Source: a virus. From it: DNA of 35,019 nucleotides. A model generated the notes under the pieces. That model was not told the DNA's origin. It saw only the letters and a program-made list of their open reading frames with translations, and did no database searches. This document shows, one piece after another, positions 16,303 through 35,019 of the stretch; position 1 is the first letter of the stretch; every line of letters begins with the position of its first letter. The translations under genes and the position numbers were made by a program. The stretch covers positions 1-35,019 of the IMG/VR virus record IMGVR_UViG_3300027896_004685; one strand, written 5' to 3'.

Positions 16303-17086
16303 TAGGTGTGAGCCATTCCCCTGGTACTGGTCGCGAGAACTGATTGCTGGCCCAGATCGCATCGAAATGCGCGGTCAGTCGCCCGTAGAGAAGCCCATCG
16401 CGTTCGACCAAGAAGGTCGGGAGGTTCCGGCTGACGTCGCCAATCAAGTAGGGCCCCCAGAACAAATGGTCATCAATTCGGAAGATATTGACCGAGGGCA
16501 GGCAACGGTACAGCCGTATCTCAAATCGGGAGTTCTCCTTCTGCAGCAACCCAGAGAATTCGCGGACAAACGCTCGAACGTCTTCGGCTATCGTCCCGGC
16601 CCTGTCTTTCTCCTCAACGTCTCGCTGGTTGGCCAGCGAGCCCTCCGCGGCGGGGAACTCCGGGTCTATGAGAAGTATCCGCACCCTAGCACAGGCGGCC
16701 CAGTGCTCAAACTGGCCACGATAATCCACCCGGAGGCTCCTGAGGCCGAACCCCATGATATCAATGGCCTCGCGGACCCCCTGCAGCCGGACGTCATACT
16801 CGTCTTTAATGCGGACAGAACGGACCTCGAATGCCCCAACAAGGCCAAACTCCCGGAAGACTCTCAGGCGGTTAACGCTGTCTTCCGAGAACCATACATA
16901 CAAGAATAGAACCCACCCGGCCACTCCAGCAGCAACGAGGGACCCGCCGATTCCGACCGCAACAACATGCCCCGTCATCACAAGCAGCAGTCCTGAGACG
17001 AACACAAATGCGTGAAGCACAAGGTAAAGCCAGTGGGGCGCCTTGAGTCTCCTGACCACCCCCCGCAACGACCGCGTGACGTGCAT
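16280..17086 (-). CDS. Two-TM membrane protein with PLD-like cytoplasmic domain
   Basis: A 268-aa protein with two transmembrane helices (about 18-37 and 41-66) and a cytoplasmic domain of about 200 residues. The segment IDIMGFGLRSLRVDYRGQ (102-119) followed by ARVRILLIDPEFP resembles the middle part of the 2TM-NUDIX protein (FFIAGRSLDFV, then ITLRLLILDP), and a later strand set (FEIRLYRCLPSVNIFRIDD, then a GLLYGRLTAHFDAIW end) fits a degenerate phospholipase-D-like or DUF5919 fold. HxK catalytic pairs are not apparent. I chose the ATG at 17086, with AAGG seven bases upstream. It is the first gene of the operon with the GHMP and HAM1-kinase genes. A membrane effector or sensor responding to a nucleotide is a reasonable guess. 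Confidence 0.75.
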   Translation of the reverse strand: MHVTRSLRGVVRRLKAPHWLYLVLHAFVFVSGLLLVMTGHVVAVGIGGSLVAAGVAGWVLFLYVWFSEDSVNRLRVFREFGLVGAFEVRSVRIKDEYDVRLQGVREAIDIMGFGLRSLRVDYRGQFEHWAACARVRILLIDPEFPAAEGSLANQRDVEEKDRAGTIAEDVRAFVREFSGLLQKENSRFEIRLYRCLPSVNIFRIDDHLFWGPYLIGDVSRNLPTFLVERDGLLYGRLTAHFDAIWASNQFSRPVPGEWLTPNDKASAS

Positions 17087-17191
17087 TGTGGGCCCTTCCC
17101 GTAACCTAGTTTGGCCGTATCGCCGGAACGCCCTTCCGATCCGAGCCAAATCCAAACGACGCCATTATGCCACATGAGTGGGCTTCGGGCA

Positions 17192-28781: not shown

Positions 28782-30254
28782 TTACGCCGCGCCCTTGATG
28801 AACAGGGCGCCGCGCGGGTCCTGCATCCCGACGCCGAAATCCATGAAGCCGCGGAACTGGACGCCCAGCGTCGAGAAGTCGGCCTCGGCCCGCTCGACGG
28901 TCGGCTGTTCCATCCCGTTCACGAAGCCGACCTCGATGGCCGGCAGGATGTTCGGGTCGGCGAACAGGTACCAGCCCGTCGCCGAGTAGCCGGTGAAGCT
29001 CGCGTTCGAGAGGTACGCGGTGGACGCCACCGTGAACTTCCCGGCCATCTGGTTGTCCTGCGGCACGAGCGTAGACTTCGAGCCGGTCGTCGCGATGGAC
29101 GCGATGAGCTGGCGGCTGGTCGTCAGGCGGTCCGCGTCCACCCGAAGCTGGGCGGGGACGCAGAGGATTCGCGGCTCGATCCCCAGGGGCCGGCCGTTCG
29201 GCTTCGTCTGCGTGAGGAAGGCCGTGTACGCCGCCACGAGGGCGTCGTGCGACAGAACCGTGTCGGCGCCGGTGAGGTAATTCTTGTTGCCGGCCGAGAA
29301 GAAGCTCGACGGGTTCGAGAGGATCAGCGTCCAGACGGCCTCGGCCAAAGCCTCGGCGCCGCCGATGCCGATCCGCCGCGGGATGTCCGTGAACGCCGAC
29401 ATATCGTCGTTCATAATCATCTGGCGGGTCAGGCTGAAGAGGATGCCCGCCGTGTCGGCCTGGATCGTGAACTTCTGTTCGCCCAGGGCGCCGTGGTGGA
29501 GCTTGCCGTCCGAGCCGACCTTCTGGAACTTCATGTCATCCGTCATGCGGTAACGGTTGTGGACCTTGAAGTCCTTGAGGCTGCCGACGCGGACGATCTG
29601 CCGCCAGGCGCTCTCGACGTAGAGGAACCCGTCGAGCAGCAGCTTGTTGGCGACGGGTGCGAGGATGCCCGGCAGGGAGAGCGTCGAGAAGGCGGCCTCG
29701 ATGAACTCCGTGCCCTTGCCGGCCATGATGGGCAGTTCGCGGCCTTCGGCGCGGGCCACGAGACGGAAGAAGTCCTGGATGCCGATGCCGCGGAACTTGG
29801 CGGCGGCGTCGAGGGCCTTCTCGCCGAAGTCCTTGAGCATGCGGCCTTCGTCCATCCGGGCGTTCATGCAGGCGGTGGCCATGAGCATCTGCCGCGACAG
29901 GTCCACGCCACCCGAGATGATGGCCGGCGCCTTCGGGCGTTCGGCCCGGAGCACCTCCAGCTCGGTGCGGGTGGGGTCCCAGCCTTCCTCGATGGCCTTG
30001 GCCTCGATGTCGGCGTGCTTGCTGGCGCAGATCCGGCGAACCCCGCCGATGCGCTTCGTCTCGGCGACCTGGGCCTCGCGGACCTCCTTGACCACATCGG
30101 CGGCCGTCGGCGCGGTTGCGGTGACGACCGCGGGGGTCTCGGGCGGCTTCTGGCTGGCGTCGAACGCCGCCTTGAGGGAGGTGCTTTGCTGCTCGGTGAG
30201 GTCGTCGGCCTTGAAGCCTTGCGCCTCAACCCATTCCTTGAACTTGGGGTCCAT
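28782..30254 (-). CDS. Nested scaffold-capsid product from an internal start
   Basis: Within the protease-capsid gene, the ATG at 30254 (MDPKFKEWVEAQGFKADD) has a full AAGGAG eight bases before it (minus strand, about 30263-30268). That is an ideal ribosome site, not expected by chance exactly at the domain joint. It would yield a 490-aa scaffold-capsid protein in excess over the fusion, as lambda does with Nu3 inside C. Its existence is a prediction. Confidence 0.6.
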   Translation of the reverse strand: MDPKFKEWVEAQGFKADDLTEQQSTSLKAAFDASQKPPETPAVVTATAPTAADVVKEVREAQVAETKRIGGVRRICASKHADIEAKAIEEGWDPTRTELEVLRAERPKAPAIISGGVDLSRQMLMATACMNARMDEGRMLKDFGEKALDAAAKFRGIGIQDFFRLVARAEGRELPIMAGKGTEFIEAAFSTLSLPGILAPVANKLLLDGFLYVESAWRQIVRVGSLKDFKVHNRYRMTDDMKFQKVGSDGKLHHGALGEQKFTIQADTAGILFSLTRQMIMNDDMSAFTDIPRRIGIGGAEALAEAVWTLILSNPSSFFSAGNKNYLTGADTVLSHDALVAAYTAFLTQTKPNGRPLGIEPRILCVPAQLRVDADRLTTSRQLIASIATTGSKSTLVPQDNQMAGKFTVASTAYLSNASFTGYSATGWYLFADPNILPAIEVGFVNGMEQPTVERAEADFSTLGVQFRGFMDFGVGMQDPRGALFIKGAA

Positions 30255-30830
30255 CGTATGCGCTCCTTGACTGGCGGCCTTGGCCGCGACCTGGACTTCC
30301 GTGCTCTCGTCGGCGCCAATGGCGACGAAACTGGTTTCTCGAAGGGTGCCCTTGCGAACAATGAGACAGGGGCCGGTGACGGTCTGGCCGTTGACCTGGG
30401 CCTTGGCATCCTCGGCGACGGATTCGAGCTTGGTGATGCCCACGCCCACCGAAGCCTGGAGGGTCATGCCGTCCTTGGCCTGATCGGCAACCATGCGGCC
30501 GGCGTCGGTCGAACGGGTCAGAACGCCGTCGATGCAGAGGCGGTGGTTGTCTACGCGGGGGGTGCCCTGCCCGGCCCGTGAAGCCATCCGGTTGTCGTGG
30601 TCGACCAGCATCGGCATCTTGGCCCGCAGGTTCAGGCCGGCGAGGTCGATGGCGACGGGACGGAACCACCCGGCGAGCTGCATGAGGCCGCCGGTGTAGG
30701 CGACCATGCTGAAGCGCGGCGGCGCATCGGCCGGGGCGCCGGGGGCGGCGGCCTGAATGTCAACCGGAGCGGCCAGGGTCAGCGTCTCGGGATGCTCGGC
30801 GGCGGCCTGGATCGTGCGGGTGCGGGGCAT
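28782..30830 (-). CDS. Prohead protease-major capsid fusion protein
   Basis: A 682-aa fusion. Residues 1-190 are a prohead protease of the herpesvirus-assemblin-like clan, with MPMLVDHDNRMAS (His78) and LQASVGV (Ser127), and the later strand TLRETSFVAIGAD. Residues 193-300 are a helical scaffold-like stretch rich in Ala, Lys and Glu, and about 330-682 an HK97-fold major capsid protein (FTIQADTAGILFSLTRQMIM and LGVQFRGFMDFGVGMQDP near the end). The protease would cut the scaffold and free the capsid protein during maturation. The start overlaps the portal stop as ATGA. Protease-capsid fusions of this kind are known. An internal start at 30254 is described separately. Confidence 0.88.
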   Translation of the reverse strand: MPRTRTIQAAAEHPETLTLAAPVDIQAAAPGAPADAPPRFSMVAYTGGLMQLAGWFRPVAIDLAGLNLRAKMPMLVDHDNRMASRAGQGTPRVDNHRLCIDGVLTRSTDAGRMVADQAKDGMTLQASVGVGITKLESVAEDAKAQVNGQTVTGPCLIVRKGTLRETSFVAIGADESTEVQVAAKAASQGAHTMDPKFKEWVEAQGFKADDLTEQQSTSLKAAFDASQKPPETPAVVTATAPTAADVVKEVREAQVAETKRIGGVRRICASKHADIEAKAIEEGWDPTRTELEVLRAERPKAPAIISGGVDLSRQMLMATACMNARMDEGRMLKDFGEKALDAAAKFRGIGIQDFFRLVARAEGRELPIMAGKGTEFIEAAFSTLSLPGILAPVANKLLLDGFLYVESAWRQIVRVGSLKDFKVHNRYRMTDDMKFQKVGSDGKLHHGALGEQKFTIQADTAGILFSLTRQMIMNDDMSAFTDIPRRIGIGGAEALAEAVWTLILSNPSSFFSAGNKNYLTGADTVLSHDALVAAYTAFLTQTKPNGRPLGIEPRILCVPAQLRVDADRLTTSRQLIASIATTGSKSTLVPQDNQMAGKFTVASTAYLSNASFTGYSATGWYLFADPNILPAIEVGFVNGMEQPTVERAEADFSTLGVQFRGFMDFGVGMQDPRGALFIKGAA

Positions 30831-32485
30831 CAGAGGTCCTCCGTCTCGTCCACGGGCGGCGGCTCGCTGTCATCTGGGGGCTCGCCATCATCCGCGGGGA
30901 CCGGGGCCGGCGCCGGGGCGGGAGCGGCTGGCGTGCCAGGGGCCTGGCCGAGGGGCGCGGCCACGGCGGGCGTCACGCCGAGTTGCTTGCACAGGGCGAT
31001 CTCCTTGGCCCGCTGACGGATTTCGGGCTCCCAGTCTTTGCCCTGCCGGGCGTACTCGGCGGCCAGGGTGGTGGTATTCGAGGCCAGGCGGGTCTGTTGG
31101 GCGGTCGCCTCCTTGGCGGGGTCAACGTGCTCGTGCCCATCCCAGAACCACTGGTGTGGGTACTCGGCCATCGTCCGGGCCGGGAGGGGCAGAAGGTCGG
31201 AGACCAGGATGGCTTCGTCCATCCAGGCCGAGAAGATGCGGTCGAGGACCACGTCGGCGGCGCTCTGCTGGTCGACGCGAATCTGGCGGTAATAGGTCTG
31301 GTGGTCGAGGCGGCCGGACGCATAGTTGTAGGCGGACGAGTTGCCGCGGGCCACGTTCGACGGCACGTTCAGGCAGCGGGCGATCTCATCCAGAATCTCG
31401 CCCTTGAATTCCCTGTAAGTGGTGGCGGGCTGCTCGGCCTTGATCTGGCCCGGTTCCCAGCCTTCGGGGAGCGTCGTCATCATGCGGCGTTCAAGTTCGA
31501 TGGTGTCCATCGGCTCGACAGCTTCGGCTTCGCCGTCGGCCGGGGCCTTCGTGTAGAGGACGATGGCGAAGTCGGCGGCGGCCTCGGCGGCGTCCAGCAC
31601 GGCCAGGGTGAAACGCCGCAGTTGGGCGAAGAGGGGCAGCGCCGGCGTCAGCTCGGGGATGCCGCGGTGCTGGCCGGGGCGGTCCTGGCGGAACCAGTGG
31701 ACGACGTCCTTGGCCGGGATTTTGTCGTATTCCCAGGGGAACCCGATCGTGCCGGTGAAATAGGCGTAGTTCCCCGGGTGGATGCGGAGGACGTGGTACT
31801 CGACGGGGTTCCCCGCTTTGTCGAAAACGATGCCGTCGACGGAGGGCACGGTCAGCAGGGTTACGTCGGTAAACGTCACCTGGTCGGCCTCGATCAGGCG
31901 GAGGTCAAGCTTGACGGGCGAGGCCAGGCCGGGGTTCGAGGTCAGGATTCCGAAGGCCTCGCCATCCTGAACGCGGGCGGCCCGCATGGTGCGGAGCTTT
32001 TCGGCCAGGCGGACCTCGCGAGCCCAGCGGGAGAACTGCCGCTCGACCTTCCGGTTAACGTCGGCGTTGGGGGTCTGCATCTGGAGGCGCGGGCCGGTGC
32101 CGACCACGTCGTTGGCGATGGTCAGCACGAGGCCGCGGGCATAGGTGTTGTTGGCAACCTCATAGCGGGCGCGGTTGCGAAGGATGTAGCGGACGCCGGG
32201 ATTGCTGGCGGCGTCGGCCGACAGGCCGTCCGACATGCCCCAGTGGCGGCGGTTGTCGTCGGTGGTCTGGGCAGCGTCGAACCGGGCGCTCAGGCGGCGG
32301 GGTCGCGGCGTCCGGTCGGAGAGCATCATGGGCGGCGGAGCGGCGGAGGCGACGGCGCGCATCGCGCTCTCCAGCTCGGGATCGTCCTGGCGGCCACGGT
32401 TGCCCCGGAGCGTCACGCGGGCCGTCAGGCGGGACTTCGGGCGGCCGGGGGCGCGACGGGGCGACTTGGTGTTTCGCTTGGACAC
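30830..32485 (-). CDS. Lambda-family portal protein
   Basis: A 551-aa portal protein, the dodecameric ring at the capsid vertex through which DNA passes. Motifs of the lambda family are present: RFDAAQTTDDNRRHW near residue 65, then NPGVRYILRNRARYEVANNT, and VQDGEAFGIL, VHWFRQDRPGQHRGIPEL and the helical crown PSNVARGNSSAYNYASGRLD. The C-terminal 45 residues are Pro/Ala-rich (APAPAPAPVPADDGEPPDD) and disordered. The start is the GTG at 32485, sharing a base with the gpW-like stop (TAGTG). The open frame reaches 32878, but that part overlaps the upstream gene and is not coding. The stop overlaps the protease-capsid start. Confidence 0.92.
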   Translation of the reverse strand: MSKRNTKSPRRAPGRPKSRLTARVTLRGNRGRQDDPELESAMRAVASAAPPPMMLSDRTPRPRRLSARFDAAQTTDDNRRHWGMSDGLSADAASNPGVRYILRNRARYEVANNTYARGLVLTIANDVVGTGPRLQMQTPNADVNRKVERQFSRWAREVRLAEKLRTMRAARVQDGEAFGILTSNPGLASPVKLDLRLIEADQVTFTDVTLLTVPSVDGIVFDKAGNPVEYHVLRIHPGNYAYFTGTIGFPWEYDKIPAKDVVHWFRQDRPGQHRGIPELTPALPLFAQLRRFTLAVLDAAEAAADFAIVLYTKAPADGEAEAVEPMDTIELERRMMTTLPEGWEPGQIKAEQPATTYREFKGEILDEIARCLNVPSNVARGNSSAYNYASGRLDHQTYYRQIRVDQQSAADVVLDRIFSAWMDEAILVSDLLPLPARTMAEYPHQWFWDGHEHVDPAKEATAQQTRLASNTTTLAAEYARQGKDWEPEIRQRAKEIALCKQLGVTPAVAAPLGQAPGTPAAPAPAPAPVPADDGEPPDDSEPPPVDETEDL

Positions 32486-32682
32486 TAGACGGCCCCTGGG
32501 GCGGCGAGCTTCGAGAATCGGATGCCGCGACTCTTCGTGGCGACGGCCTTCTTGCCGCAGACGTACTTGTCGGCCTCGATCTGTTGGGCGAGGTCGTGCT
32601 GGCTCATGCTGCCGGAGTCGCCCGAGGCAGACTTCGGCCCCTGGGCGTTCGTCCGGATGGCATCCGTCAGTTCGTCGGCCAC
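32485..32682 (-). CDS. gpW-like small head completion protein
   Basis: A 65-aa protein, VADELTDAIRTNAQGPKSAS at its start and EADKYVCGKKAVATKSRGIR later, placed before the portal gene where lambda has gpW. The GTG at 32682 has AGGAG eight bases upstream. In lambda-type phages gpW joins the head and tail after packaging. The large terminase normally lies just before this gene but does not here. Confidence 0.7.
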   Translation of the reverse strand: MADELTDAIRTNAQGPKSASGDSGSMSQHDLAQQIEADKYVCGKKAVATKSRGIRFSKLAAPGAV

Positions 32683-33019
32683 TCGCGTTACTCCTGGCAA
32701 CCCAGCCGGGCAACGGCCAAAAGAAAAGGCCCGTGGAGTCGTGGCTCCACGAAGCCTTGATCTTCAGGACTCCGCGTCGGGGATCAGCCGCCGCGTCGTC
32801 ACCCAGCCGGGTTGTCGATGCCTGCCTCCTATCTATTTCATACCCAGCGAAAAGAGCTACGCAGACGGAAACTCTCACGATTCGGCAACGTTGTTACACC
32901 GGTGGAATACCTCGCTTGCGGAGGCACAGTCGCCGCAACGCTTGTGAACATTGCGGCTCGGCAGGAGCCGAATCCTGGGCATCATCCGCTCTGAGGCGTA
33001 AAGCCGATCCCGAAGCACC
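32683..33019. other. 337-bp intergenic region upstream of the late operon
   Basis: I see no gene or terminase remnant here. It contains a strong minus-strand intrinsic terminator (32719-32758, listed separately) and a 7-bp-stem hairpin, GCCGCAA...TTGCGGC (32932-32957), which may end kinase transcription. It presumably also holds the promoter for the late operon between 32682 and about 32718, though no clear motif is visible in that short space. Confidence 0.5.
32719..32758 (-). terminator. Intrinsic terminator before the late operon
   Basis: On the minus strand a two-part stem (AAGGC pairing GCCTT, then CGTGGAG pairing CTCCACG, loop of 6) is followed by TTTTCTTTT. It ends about 37 bases before the gpW-like start. 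It would stop transcripts coming from the kinase side, so the late genes need their own promoter or an antiterminator. Confidence 0.75.
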
Positions 33020-34312
33020 CTACGGCAATCTCTCGTCTGCCTCCGTGATGAAGAACGTCCCCTTGCGGCCGTCGATGACAACCACGAGATGCTGAAGGCC
33101 GTTCGTCCCAAGTATGTTGGGAAGGTCAGGCCTGCCATAAGATACGTGAACGTTGCAGGCGACGACGCTTGGGAGGCCCGGAATCTGGACAGAGACCTCT
33201 GCTAGGCCCATGACCATCTGCTCCCCGGAGACCGTCCGAATGAGTCTTTCGCCTCGCAAACCCAGTCCTATGGATTCCGCGACTTGCCGCGAGATCATCG
33301 ACACCGTCGCTCCGGTATCTAGCAGGGCCTTCACGTTGGCCCTCCTCCCCGTGAAGGGGTTCGCGACAACAAGATCGACCGCTAATCCGTTGTCGGAGTC
33401 AATCTTTCCTTCATATCTCTTTCCTTTGAATGGATACCGAACTACGGGGACCTCGCGTGCGACAACCGGCGCAACAACAGCTCGCCCCCTCTTCCCAATG
33501 CCTAGATGTTTGTTGATATCAAGGAGAACCTCGTGCATTGTTCGGTAGCGCTTCCCGGGATCTTTTGCGAGACATTTCATCACTACTCCATCGAGCCACG
33601 GTGGCACGTTCGGCCGACCCGCGCTGGGGGGGACAGGTGCGTTCTGATTCGGATTCCCGTGCCAATAGACAGAGCCGTCTGCTTGCTTCGGCATAGTTCT
33701 GGCCAAGCAGCGGTACATCGTTACGCCCATCGCATAAATATCTACTTGTGGCGTGATGGTGCCACTTTGGACGTACTCTGGGGCTAGGTGAAGGTTGTAC
33801 CCAAGTGAGCCGCTAGTGATGCGCGGCAGGTCGACCAACGACGCTATGCCAAAGTCCACGATTCTTGGCCTGCCGTACGATTCGAGAATGATATTTGCGG
33901 GCTTTATGTCGCGGTGAAAGACGTGGCACTTGTGAGCCGTCCTCAGGGCAAGGGCGACGCGCTTGAAGACGAGAATCAAATGCTTGGGGGCCAGCAGCGG
34001 GCTGTCGACAAAGACGAGCTTCTCCAGGTCCTCCCCGTCCACGAACTCCATTGTCAGGAAGTAGCCCTCGGCTGTCTGTCGGAGGTCTATCGGCTTGACA
34101 ACGTATGGTGATTGGATTCTCCGCAGGCTCAGCAGTTCTCTTCGCGCCCTCTCAAGCATCTCTGGGCTTGCTGCAGCTCCAGGAAGGAGTTTTAGCGCTT
34201 GCACTTCCTGTGTAAGAGTTTGACGAACCTTATAGACCTCACCAAAGGCGCCGGCACCCTTGAACTCGATGATCTGATACGCGTCAAAGCTGGAGTTGAT
34301 CGTCAAGAGCAT
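33020..34312 (-). CDS. Ser/Thr protein kinase fused to a retropepsin-like aspartyl protease domain
   Basis: A 430-aa cytoplasmic protein with two domains. Residues 11-270 are a Hanks-type kinase: Gly-rich loop GAGAFGEVYKV (19-29), Lys41 in QALKLL, Glu59, HRD with Asp135 and Asn140 (HRDIKPANII), DFG (153-155) and APE (177-179). All catalytic residues are present. Residues 295-425 are an aspartyl protease of retroviral type: ALLDTGATVSMIS with Asp332-Thr333-Gly334, and the later ILGTNGLQHL segment; such enzymes act as dimers. I know of no standard family with this fusion. No membrane segment, PASTA or other sensor is seen. It starts at the ATG at 34312 with GGGGG upstream. It has less GC-biased codons than the phage genes, which suggests transfer. 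It may be a phage defence or a regulator. Confidence 0.88.
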   Translation of the reverse strand: MLLTINSSFDAYQIIEFKGAGAFGEVYKVRQTLTQEVQALKLLPGAAASPEMLERARRELLSLRRIQSPYVVKPIDLRQTAEGYFLTMEFVDGEDLEKLVFVDSPLLAPKHLILVFKRVALALRTAHKCHVFHRDIKPANIILESYGRPRIVDFGIASLVDLPRITSGSLGYNLHLAPEYVQSGTITPQVDIYAMGVTMYRCLARTMPKQADGSVYWHGNPNQNAPVPPSAGRPNVPPWLDGVVMKCLAKDPGKRYRTMHEVLLDINKHLGIGKRGRAVVAPVVAREVPVVRYPFKGKRYEGKIDSDNGLAVDLVVANPFTGRRANVKALLDTGATVSMISRQVAESIGLGLRGERLIRTVSGEQMVMGLAEVSVQIPGLPSVVACNVHVSYGRPDLPNILGTNGLQHLVVVIDGRKGTFFITEADERLP

Positions 34313-34518
34313 GTTCTGCCCCCACCACGAGACAGCCGAACGACTAGAGTGAGCCGCCTCGGGCTAGCCGCAGGGTCTTGCGGCGCGGCTCTCCACGTCG
34401 GTTGTCGCCCACTGCCGCACCGGCATAGATTACCCTCATGAAGGGCAGAACACAAGAGCAGTTTGGCTAGCCGCCCACTCGGGCCAACGATGGGCTTATG
34501 TGTGTCCGCGAGAGCAAA

Positions 34519-34565: not shown

Positions 34566-35018
34566 CTACTGCTGCGTACCCAACCCGAACAGGCCCCGGT
34601 CGGTCTTGCGGAACCGGGCGTCCTTGCCCTTCTTGGCGATCTCGCGGATGATGGCAGCGTAGATGGTGGCCGCGGGCGTCTTGCCGTCCGTCTTCCAGTA
34701 CCCCTTGGCCAGCATCGCTTCGACCATCTCCTTGCACTTCATGGGCTTCCCCGCCTCGGCCAGGACCTTGGCGGCGGCGTCCAGGCCGCTCATGCCCTTC
34801 TTGCCGTCGCCGCCCTTGGCGGCCTTGGGGGCCTTCTTGCCGCCCTTGGCATCCTTGGCCGCGGCGGCGTCTGATCGCGGCCCGTGGGCCAACGTCGTGG
34901 CCCCGGCCGTCGCCGGGGCGTCGTCCTTCGGCGTCTTGGCGGCGTGGGCGGCCTTCATGGCGGTGTCCACGGCCTCGGCCTTCGTCACGGTCTTGGCTTC
35001 GGCCGCCTTGCGGCCGCG
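34566..35018 (-). CDS. HARE-HTH winged-helix protein (N-terminus outside window)
   Basis: A protein with a HARE-type winged helix at its C-terminus ([20 protein letters not shown], then [17 protein letters not shown] and a strand pair ending DRGLFGLG). The domain is found in ASXL, RNA polymerase delta subunit and many planctomycete proteins, and likely binds DNA. It follows a long Ala/Lys-rich, low-complexity basic arm (about 70 residues), which fits non-specific nucleic acid contacts. The frame stays open to the window end, so a GTG at 34988 may not be the true start. It lies on the same strand as the kinase and is set apart by a hairpin. Confidence 0.75.
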
Positions 35019-35019
35019 G

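Follow-up and report, generated by a model that had tools for sequence, protein, structure and literature searches.

Background

The locus analysed here raises the question of what role is served, inside a phage genome, by a single gene that joins a Ser/Thr protein kinase to a retropepsin-like aspartic protease. Few forms of kinase-based phage defence are known, their triggers are poorly understood, and the biology of Planctomycetota phages is little explored. To our knowledge, no retropepsin has previously been found in phage conflict and the fusion would be the first. If the kinase is tied to a protease that is obligately dimeric, the fusion would constitute a simple and testable switch. We carried out a computational analysis of the window, i.e. 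the whole stretch of DNA analysed, which is the 35,019-nt IMG/VR virus record IMGVR_UViG_3300027896_004685 (positions 1 to 35,019).

The fusion gene and its two domains

The gene is an intact reading frame of 430 amino acids on the minus strand of the window, with the following parts.

33020..34312, minus strand: kinase-retropepsin fusion gene, 430 aa, ATG start (ORF list; codon-position GC)
34313..34326, minus strand: purine-rich GGTGGGGGCAGAAC immediately 5' of the ATG, a possible ribosome-binding site of the fusion gene (from the sequence itself)
33539..34273, minus strand: Hanks-type Ser/Thr protein kinase domain, residues 14-258 (PF00069; PDB matches; catalytic residues)
33776-33802, minus strand: kinase P+1 loop GYNLHLAPE, elsewhere GT..Y..PE, residues 171-179 (comparison with 90 related kinases)
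33437..33508, minus strand: short linker, residues about 269-292 (Pfam domain ends; start of the alignment with stand-alone relatives, at the 'YPF' region)
33041..33436, minus strand: retropepsin-like (clan AA, A2-type) aspartic protease domain, residues about 293-424 (PF13975/PF13650, TIGR03698 and profile matches)

GC content by codon position is 0.62/0.41/0.66, and GC3 is 0.65 and 0.71 in the two halves of the gene; a joining artefact of two genes is unlikely because this coding bias is common to both. No transmembrane segment was found in the whole protein (hydropathy maximum 1.37 over 19 residues).

Residues 14-258 match the Pfam Pkinase family PF00069 with an E value of 5.2e-41 (141 bits; cut-off 31.7), and the best PDB matches of this half are PknE, PknB and StkP. 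In a comparison with 90 related kinases, all catalytic positions are kept (G19/G21, K41, E59, H133-R-D135-K137-N140, D153-F-G, P178-E179, D191 and R255), so that the Lys, Glu, HRD..N, DFG, APE and Arg of the Hanks-type Ser/Thr kinases are all present. The P+1 loop deviates from the same 90 kinases in having Y172 for T and H175 for Y, at positions that are 92-94% conserved; the substrate is therefore uncertain, and the kinase may have unusual ones. In PADLOC, the models for PD-T4-6 hit the kinase half at 1.4e-54, although such models match this type of kinase generally; this was rejected as proof of defence, since many of them match with scores like those of generic PknB-type models. Against the NCBIfam model for the MADS kinase MAD6, the protein scored 147 bits, far under the cut-off of 460.

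A DTG-type active site followed by a hydrophobic-hydrophobic-Gly motif is the hallmark of a retropepsin half. Both occur here in one small domain, as D332-T-G-A and, about 70 residues further on, ILG at 400-402. Residues 326-408 match gag-asp_proteas PF13975 (2.1e-8, 35.1 bits; cut-off 28.2) and Asp_protease_2 PF13650 (2.4e-8, 35.0 bits; cut-off 24.3), with E values of 2.8e-9 and 3.5e-9, respectively, when the C-terminal part was searched alone. Matches to TIGR03698 (1.5e-9, 38.1 bits) and TIGR02281 (20.2 bits) lie under the NCBIfam cut-offs of 57.35 and 57.95. A profile built from the protease half and ten bacterial relatives matches HIV-1 protease, DDI1 and Rickettsia ApRick in the PDB with E values of 9e-9 to 1e-6. 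AlphaFold2 models of the whole protein and of the C-terminal part, drawn from alignments of only 1 and 2 sequences, have pLDDT values near 32; the retropepsin fold of the C-terminal domain is predicted from the profile matches.

An earlier, sequence-only reading had described a Ser/Thr kinase and a retropepsin-like domain in one protein, with the HRD/DFG/DTGA catalytic residues kept. Both Pfam matches lie above cut-off and D135, D153 and D332 are in place, and the occurrence of the two domains in one intact ORF inside a phage genome is confirmed at the level of sequence.

Phage neighbourhood and insertion of the gene

Upstream of the fusion gene lies a HARE-HTH gene; downstream come a gpW-like gene, the portal gene and the head protease/major head gene, as listed below.

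34566..35019, minus strand: HARE-HTH gene, truncated by the end of the record (PF05066 1.7e-14; 91% DNA identity to the related phage contig L112)
34519..34543, minus strand: strong hairpin directly 3' of the HARE-HTH gene, 9 bp stem, -20.9 kcal/mol (a similar one in L112; no clear T run)
32719..32753, minus strand: terminator-like hairpin with a T-rich tail, between the fusion and gpW-like genes (terminator scan and position)
32485..32682, minus strand: gpW-like small gene directly 5' of the portal gene, kept in relatives (comparison with relatives)
30830..32359, minus strand: lambda-type portal gene (PF05136 1.3e-57, phrog_21)
28782..30830, minus strand: fusion of major head and head-maturation protease (phrog_4523 3e-72, PF25209 3e-42)

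The terminator scan found 1 terminator against 2.2 expected in shuffled DNA, and it is position alone that favours the hairpins. The portal ORF is open to 32878, with homology beginning near residue 174-200. A single ORF at 28782-30830 holds both the head maturation protease and the major head protein.

In L112, the HARE-HTH gene has terL further upstream and is directly followed by the gpW-like and portal genes, with no fusion gene between them; from this empty site it follows that the fusion gene was inserted within the phage, on a stretch of about 1.6 kb. The GC3 of the gene, 0.66, differs from that of the HARE-HTH (0.957), portal (0.888) and head (0.916) genes, and several other accessory genes of the record have GC3 values of 0.66-0.68. 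With neighbours that lie next to each other in L112, and with a composition unlike that of the phage (GC3 0.66 versus 0.89-0.96), the fusion gene is, by position and composition, a phage cargo ("moron") gene. The phage context proposed by the sequence-only reading is borne out, as phage genes stand on both sides and L112 has the same neighbours. A promoter scan found no sigma-70-like promoter for the fusion gene.

We also considered whether the HARE-HTH side was a host flank at the end of a prophage, and rejected this on the 91% identity to the HARE-HTH gene of L112 and the empty site there. Between terL and gpW, L112 (8155-10644) carries three small genes of high GC3 in addition to the HARE-HTH gene. 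In most relatives the HARE-HTH gene lies on the far side of terL in the opposite orientation, and the rearrangement is apparently common to the record and L112.

The portal protein is 45-68% identical (mostly about 58-68%) to portals in 39 of 392 Planctomycetota genomes, some of which hold three or more copies, and the best portals among isolated phages are less than 30% identical. By these matches, the phage family is one that resides in Planctomycetota.

Rarity of the fusion

Both domains were found together in 1 of 103 retropepsin ORFs and 1 of 100 kinase ORFs, in each case the record's own. No retropepsin was detected by motif at the best 80 kinase loci from 84,980 species genomes, and none of 54 long retropepsin ORFs of Planctomycetota carries a kinase. 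Neither a search of viral contigs nor alignment-based scans yielded a close relative of the whole protein or of its protease domain, and tblastn against phages and plasmids matched the kinase half but not the protease half. We found nothing in the literature on Pkinase joined to gag-asp_proteas or retropepsin. A survey of Planctomycetota kinases covers 105 accessory domains, and no protease is named in its main text (PMC11032199).

The arrangement is as rare as the sequence-only reading had supposed, with no second fusion among the 99 other kinase and 102 other retropepsin ORFs; these same ORFs give no sign of a common housekeeping planctomycete regulator, which that reading had named as the finding that would count against it. 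Such a regulator was also rejected in 294 Planctomycetota, 347 Acidobacteria and 289 Verrucomicrobia genomes, where a C-terminal query yielded stand-alone proteins or other fusions only. The searches leave room for diverged fusions elsewhere, one copy being known. No other example of the architecture turned up in the collections searched; the component parts and the setting are already known.

A cargo hotspot between terL and the gpW-portal genes

The terL-portal regions of 54 prophages were compared together with viral contigs, giving 63 related phages and prophages with both landmarks. The interval from terL to gpW is 35 nt at its shortest and 4728 nt at its longest, and 30 of the 63 have more than 600 nt there. 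By contrast, the gpW-portal gap is 3-83 nt in 29 of 30 phages of the first set of relatives and the HARE-terL interval is 0.74-1.99 kb in 20 of 21 of the same phages, the neighbouring intervals having been compared by length and inspection and the cargo interval by family matches. In this contrast with its neighbours, the terL-gpW site reads clearly as a cargo hotspot, exposed here in a widespread Planctomycetota phage family.

At 11 of the 30 occupied sites (>600 nt), the cargo strongly matches toxin-antitoxin or defence (or defence-candidate) families, a count in which the loci are not all independent and the PDC families are candidates only; the site is thus one that such genes use recurrently. 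The other 19 are without a strong match of this kind. The recognised contents of the terL-gpW interval are as follows.

L120, L123, L167, L195, L196, L208 and L216: AbiEii (seven loci)
L119: PD-Lambda-2_B (3.5e-46), with HigB
L122: Fic/PDC-S24 (1.4e-184)
L163: PDC-M36A (9e-22)
L188: PDC-M41A/B (6.9e-64 and 1.4e-119)
L165, L173 and L171: HNH or GIY-YIG proteins
L184: SUKH protein
L180, L181 and L197: sigma-factor-like genes

The remaining occupied sites hold genes without a recognised family, and neither the kinase nor the protease of the fusion was found at the site in the 63 relatives.

The cargo loci of the hotspot comprise L119, L120, L122, L123, L163, L165, L167, L171, L173, L184, L187, L188, L193, L195, L196, L208, L211 and L216. 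Unrecognised genes among them, in L163 (503 aa), L193 (485 aa), L211 (219 aa), L187 (376 aa) and L184 (190 and 181 aa), make good candidates for toxin or defence systems of a new kind. The sigma-70-like genes lie directly 5' of gpW (L180:1588-2163, L181:6766-7350, L197:6804-7364 and, by eye, L200:6637-7293) and are perhaps late-gene sigma factors. L189 and L213 have gaps of 3.9 and 4.7 kb with long high-GC3 ORFs that resemble secreted bacterial proteins; unlike the other cargo, these may be host genes or rearranged prophage.

Comparison with known systems

Stk2 of Staphylococcus, the product of a single gene, is a Hanks-type kinase; it phosphorylates proteins of the host and makes infection abortive (PMC11676413), and PD-T4-6 of S. 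thermophilus is a kinase followed by PASTA-like modules (PMC11514479). The fusion resembles such lone kinases in being a single gene with a Hanks-type kinase, and differs from them in having no membrane segment and a retropepsin as its C-terminal domain; with no PASTA match, it falls outside the S. thermophilus form of PD-T4-6. The KKP systems are prophage-borne kinases with variable C-terminal domains that act in defence and lysogeny control (PMC11341870). Like these, the fusion is a phage-borne kinase with a distinct C-terminal domain; however, KKP consists of two kinases and a PP2C phosphatase with CSD and FHA domains, whereas the fusion is one gene that has no second kinase, phosphatase, CSD or FHA domain and is neighboured by HARE-HTH and gpW/portal genes.

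On the protease side, APRc of Rickettsia dimerises and cleaves itself in an Asp-dependent manner, also when fused to GST in E. coli (PMC4140852), and RimB of Pseudomonas acts as a dimer, also on its partner enzyme (PMC11957791). The fusion shares the DTG catalytic motif and a family profile match with these two and with the TIGR03698/TIGR02281 proteins of clan AA, none of which is joined to a protein kinase. As to the site, P2-like phages have a defence hotspot between gpA and portal, next to cos (PMC9122126). Both hotspots place variable cargo beside the portal/packaging region of prophages; unlike that of P2, the present one belongs to the lambda-type head module of Planctomycetota phages, places its cargo between terL and gpW-portal, and is known from sequence alone.

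Proposed role and alternatives

The reading that we prefer, with a probability of about 0.45, is that the gene is cargo of a temperate Planctomycetota phage and serves the lysogen as a single-protein phage-exclusion effector of an abortive-infection-like kind; as a phage-exclusion gene, it would probably be of a type not described before. Phage exclusion or abortive infection is the best-supported role because the variable site holds toxin-antitoxin and defence or defence-candidate genes in relatives (11 of 30, as qualified above). Context supports a defence reading, and phage resistance itself is predicted. The setting of defence or exclusion that had been suggested from the window alone is upheld in part; the empty site of L112 and the AbiE, PD-Lambda-2, Fic and PDC cargo of relatives speak for it, and the 19 of 30 sites without such a match speak against it. 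Further findings that weigh against exclusion are the single known copy of the fusion, the altered P+1 loop, the lack of an antitoxin, phosphatase or other partner next to the gene, and its orientation in the direction of the head genes. Given this direction and the lack of a sigma-70-like promoter in the scan, the gene may be expressed late in the lytic cycle.

Bacterial Hanks kinases are turned on through pairing, and retropepsin domains function only as homodimers, the known ones cleaving themselves. Under the exclusion reading, the fusion protein would be made in the lysogen. Because retropepsins work as homodimers, the C-terminal dimer could bring two kinase domains together, and the paired kinases would autophosphorylate in trans and then phosphorylate host (or incoming phage) proteins, halting growth and phage production as with the Stk2 and KKP kinases. 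Since these kinases stop infection by phosphorylating host proteins, the kinase of the fusion would, by analogy, most likely be the effector and the retropepsin dimer the part that gates or clips it. The protease would most likely clip its own chain in or near the linker and part the kinase from the dimer; this could set the duration of kinase activity, or whether the kinase stays on, and may be an on- or an off-switch. In a tighter form of the same idea, which we regard as doubtful, a single-gene abortive infection would couple phosphorylation and proteolysis, in that infection makes or frees the retropepsin dimer; the dimer would bring two kinases together before releasing them by cleavage (or would cleave a protein of phage or host), with protease and kinase as trigger and effector of one switch.

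The orientation of the gene bears on an alternative in which it is expressed in the phage's own lytic cycle as a host-takeover kinase whose substrates, like those of T7 gp0.7, are host proteins, with the protease degrading or trimming host factors. The fusion gene lies on the strand of the head genes and inside the late head operon, and many phages have kinases, but this is unlikely in view of its absence from all 63 relatives checked, its foreign codon usage, the toxin-antitoxin/defence cargo that the site otherwise holds, and the hairpins at both sides, which suggest a separate unit. We also regard it as quite unlikely that the fusion is a signalling gene of host origin that happens to be carried along and tunes the physiology of the host (stress, metabolism), unconnected with phage conflict. 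The genomes searched yielded no host copy of the fusion, and conflict genes are enriched at the site, against which stand a GC3 like that of the phage's other accessory genes, the presence of retropepsin-like proteins in 162 of 343 Planctomycetota genomes, and the many Ser/Thr kinases with varied accessory domains described for this phylum in the kinase survey (PMC11032199).

A role in lysogeny, in which the kinase acts on the phage repressor or on host nucleoid proteins to set the balance of lysis and lysogeny, with defence secondary, would parallel the regulatory side of KKP, where the same kinase type does so in prophages (PMC11341870); without the second kinase, PP2C phosphatase and CSD/FHA domains of KKP, and without the conservation among relatives expected of a core regulator, the gene is a distinctly improbable regulator of this kind. 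That there is a single sequence with no homologue found would suit a decayed or chance fusion without function, transiently acquired in a metagenomic contig; the intact frame, the coding-type base composition and the full set of catalytic residues in both halves make this very improbable. Next to no credence is given to a virion morphogenesis enzyme, i.e. a head-maturation retropepsin tuned by phosphorylation. It would account for the adjoining portal and head genes, but the phage already has its own prohead protease within the head gene at 28782-30830 (phrog_4523), relatives have head genes without the fusion, and the fusion gene is by all signs an insertion.

Other accessory genes of the record

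The window also contains a large low-GC3 accessory island at 1764-17155. It holds radical SAM-like, HNH, phosphoribosyltransferase, NUDIX and Eco57I-type methyltransferase genes, a HATPase protein with an N-terminus that resembles the BbrUII/HgiDII restriction enzymes, a queuosine precursor transporter (TIGR00697, above cut-off) and a fusion of Ham1-like and nucleotide-kinase-like parts. Within the island, at 15307-16362, lies a gene of the methanopterin-pathway type beta-ribofuranosylaminobenzene 5'-phosphate (beta-RFAP) synthase family (TIGR00144, above cut-off). The island is possibly cargo for nucleotide/DNA modification or restriction.
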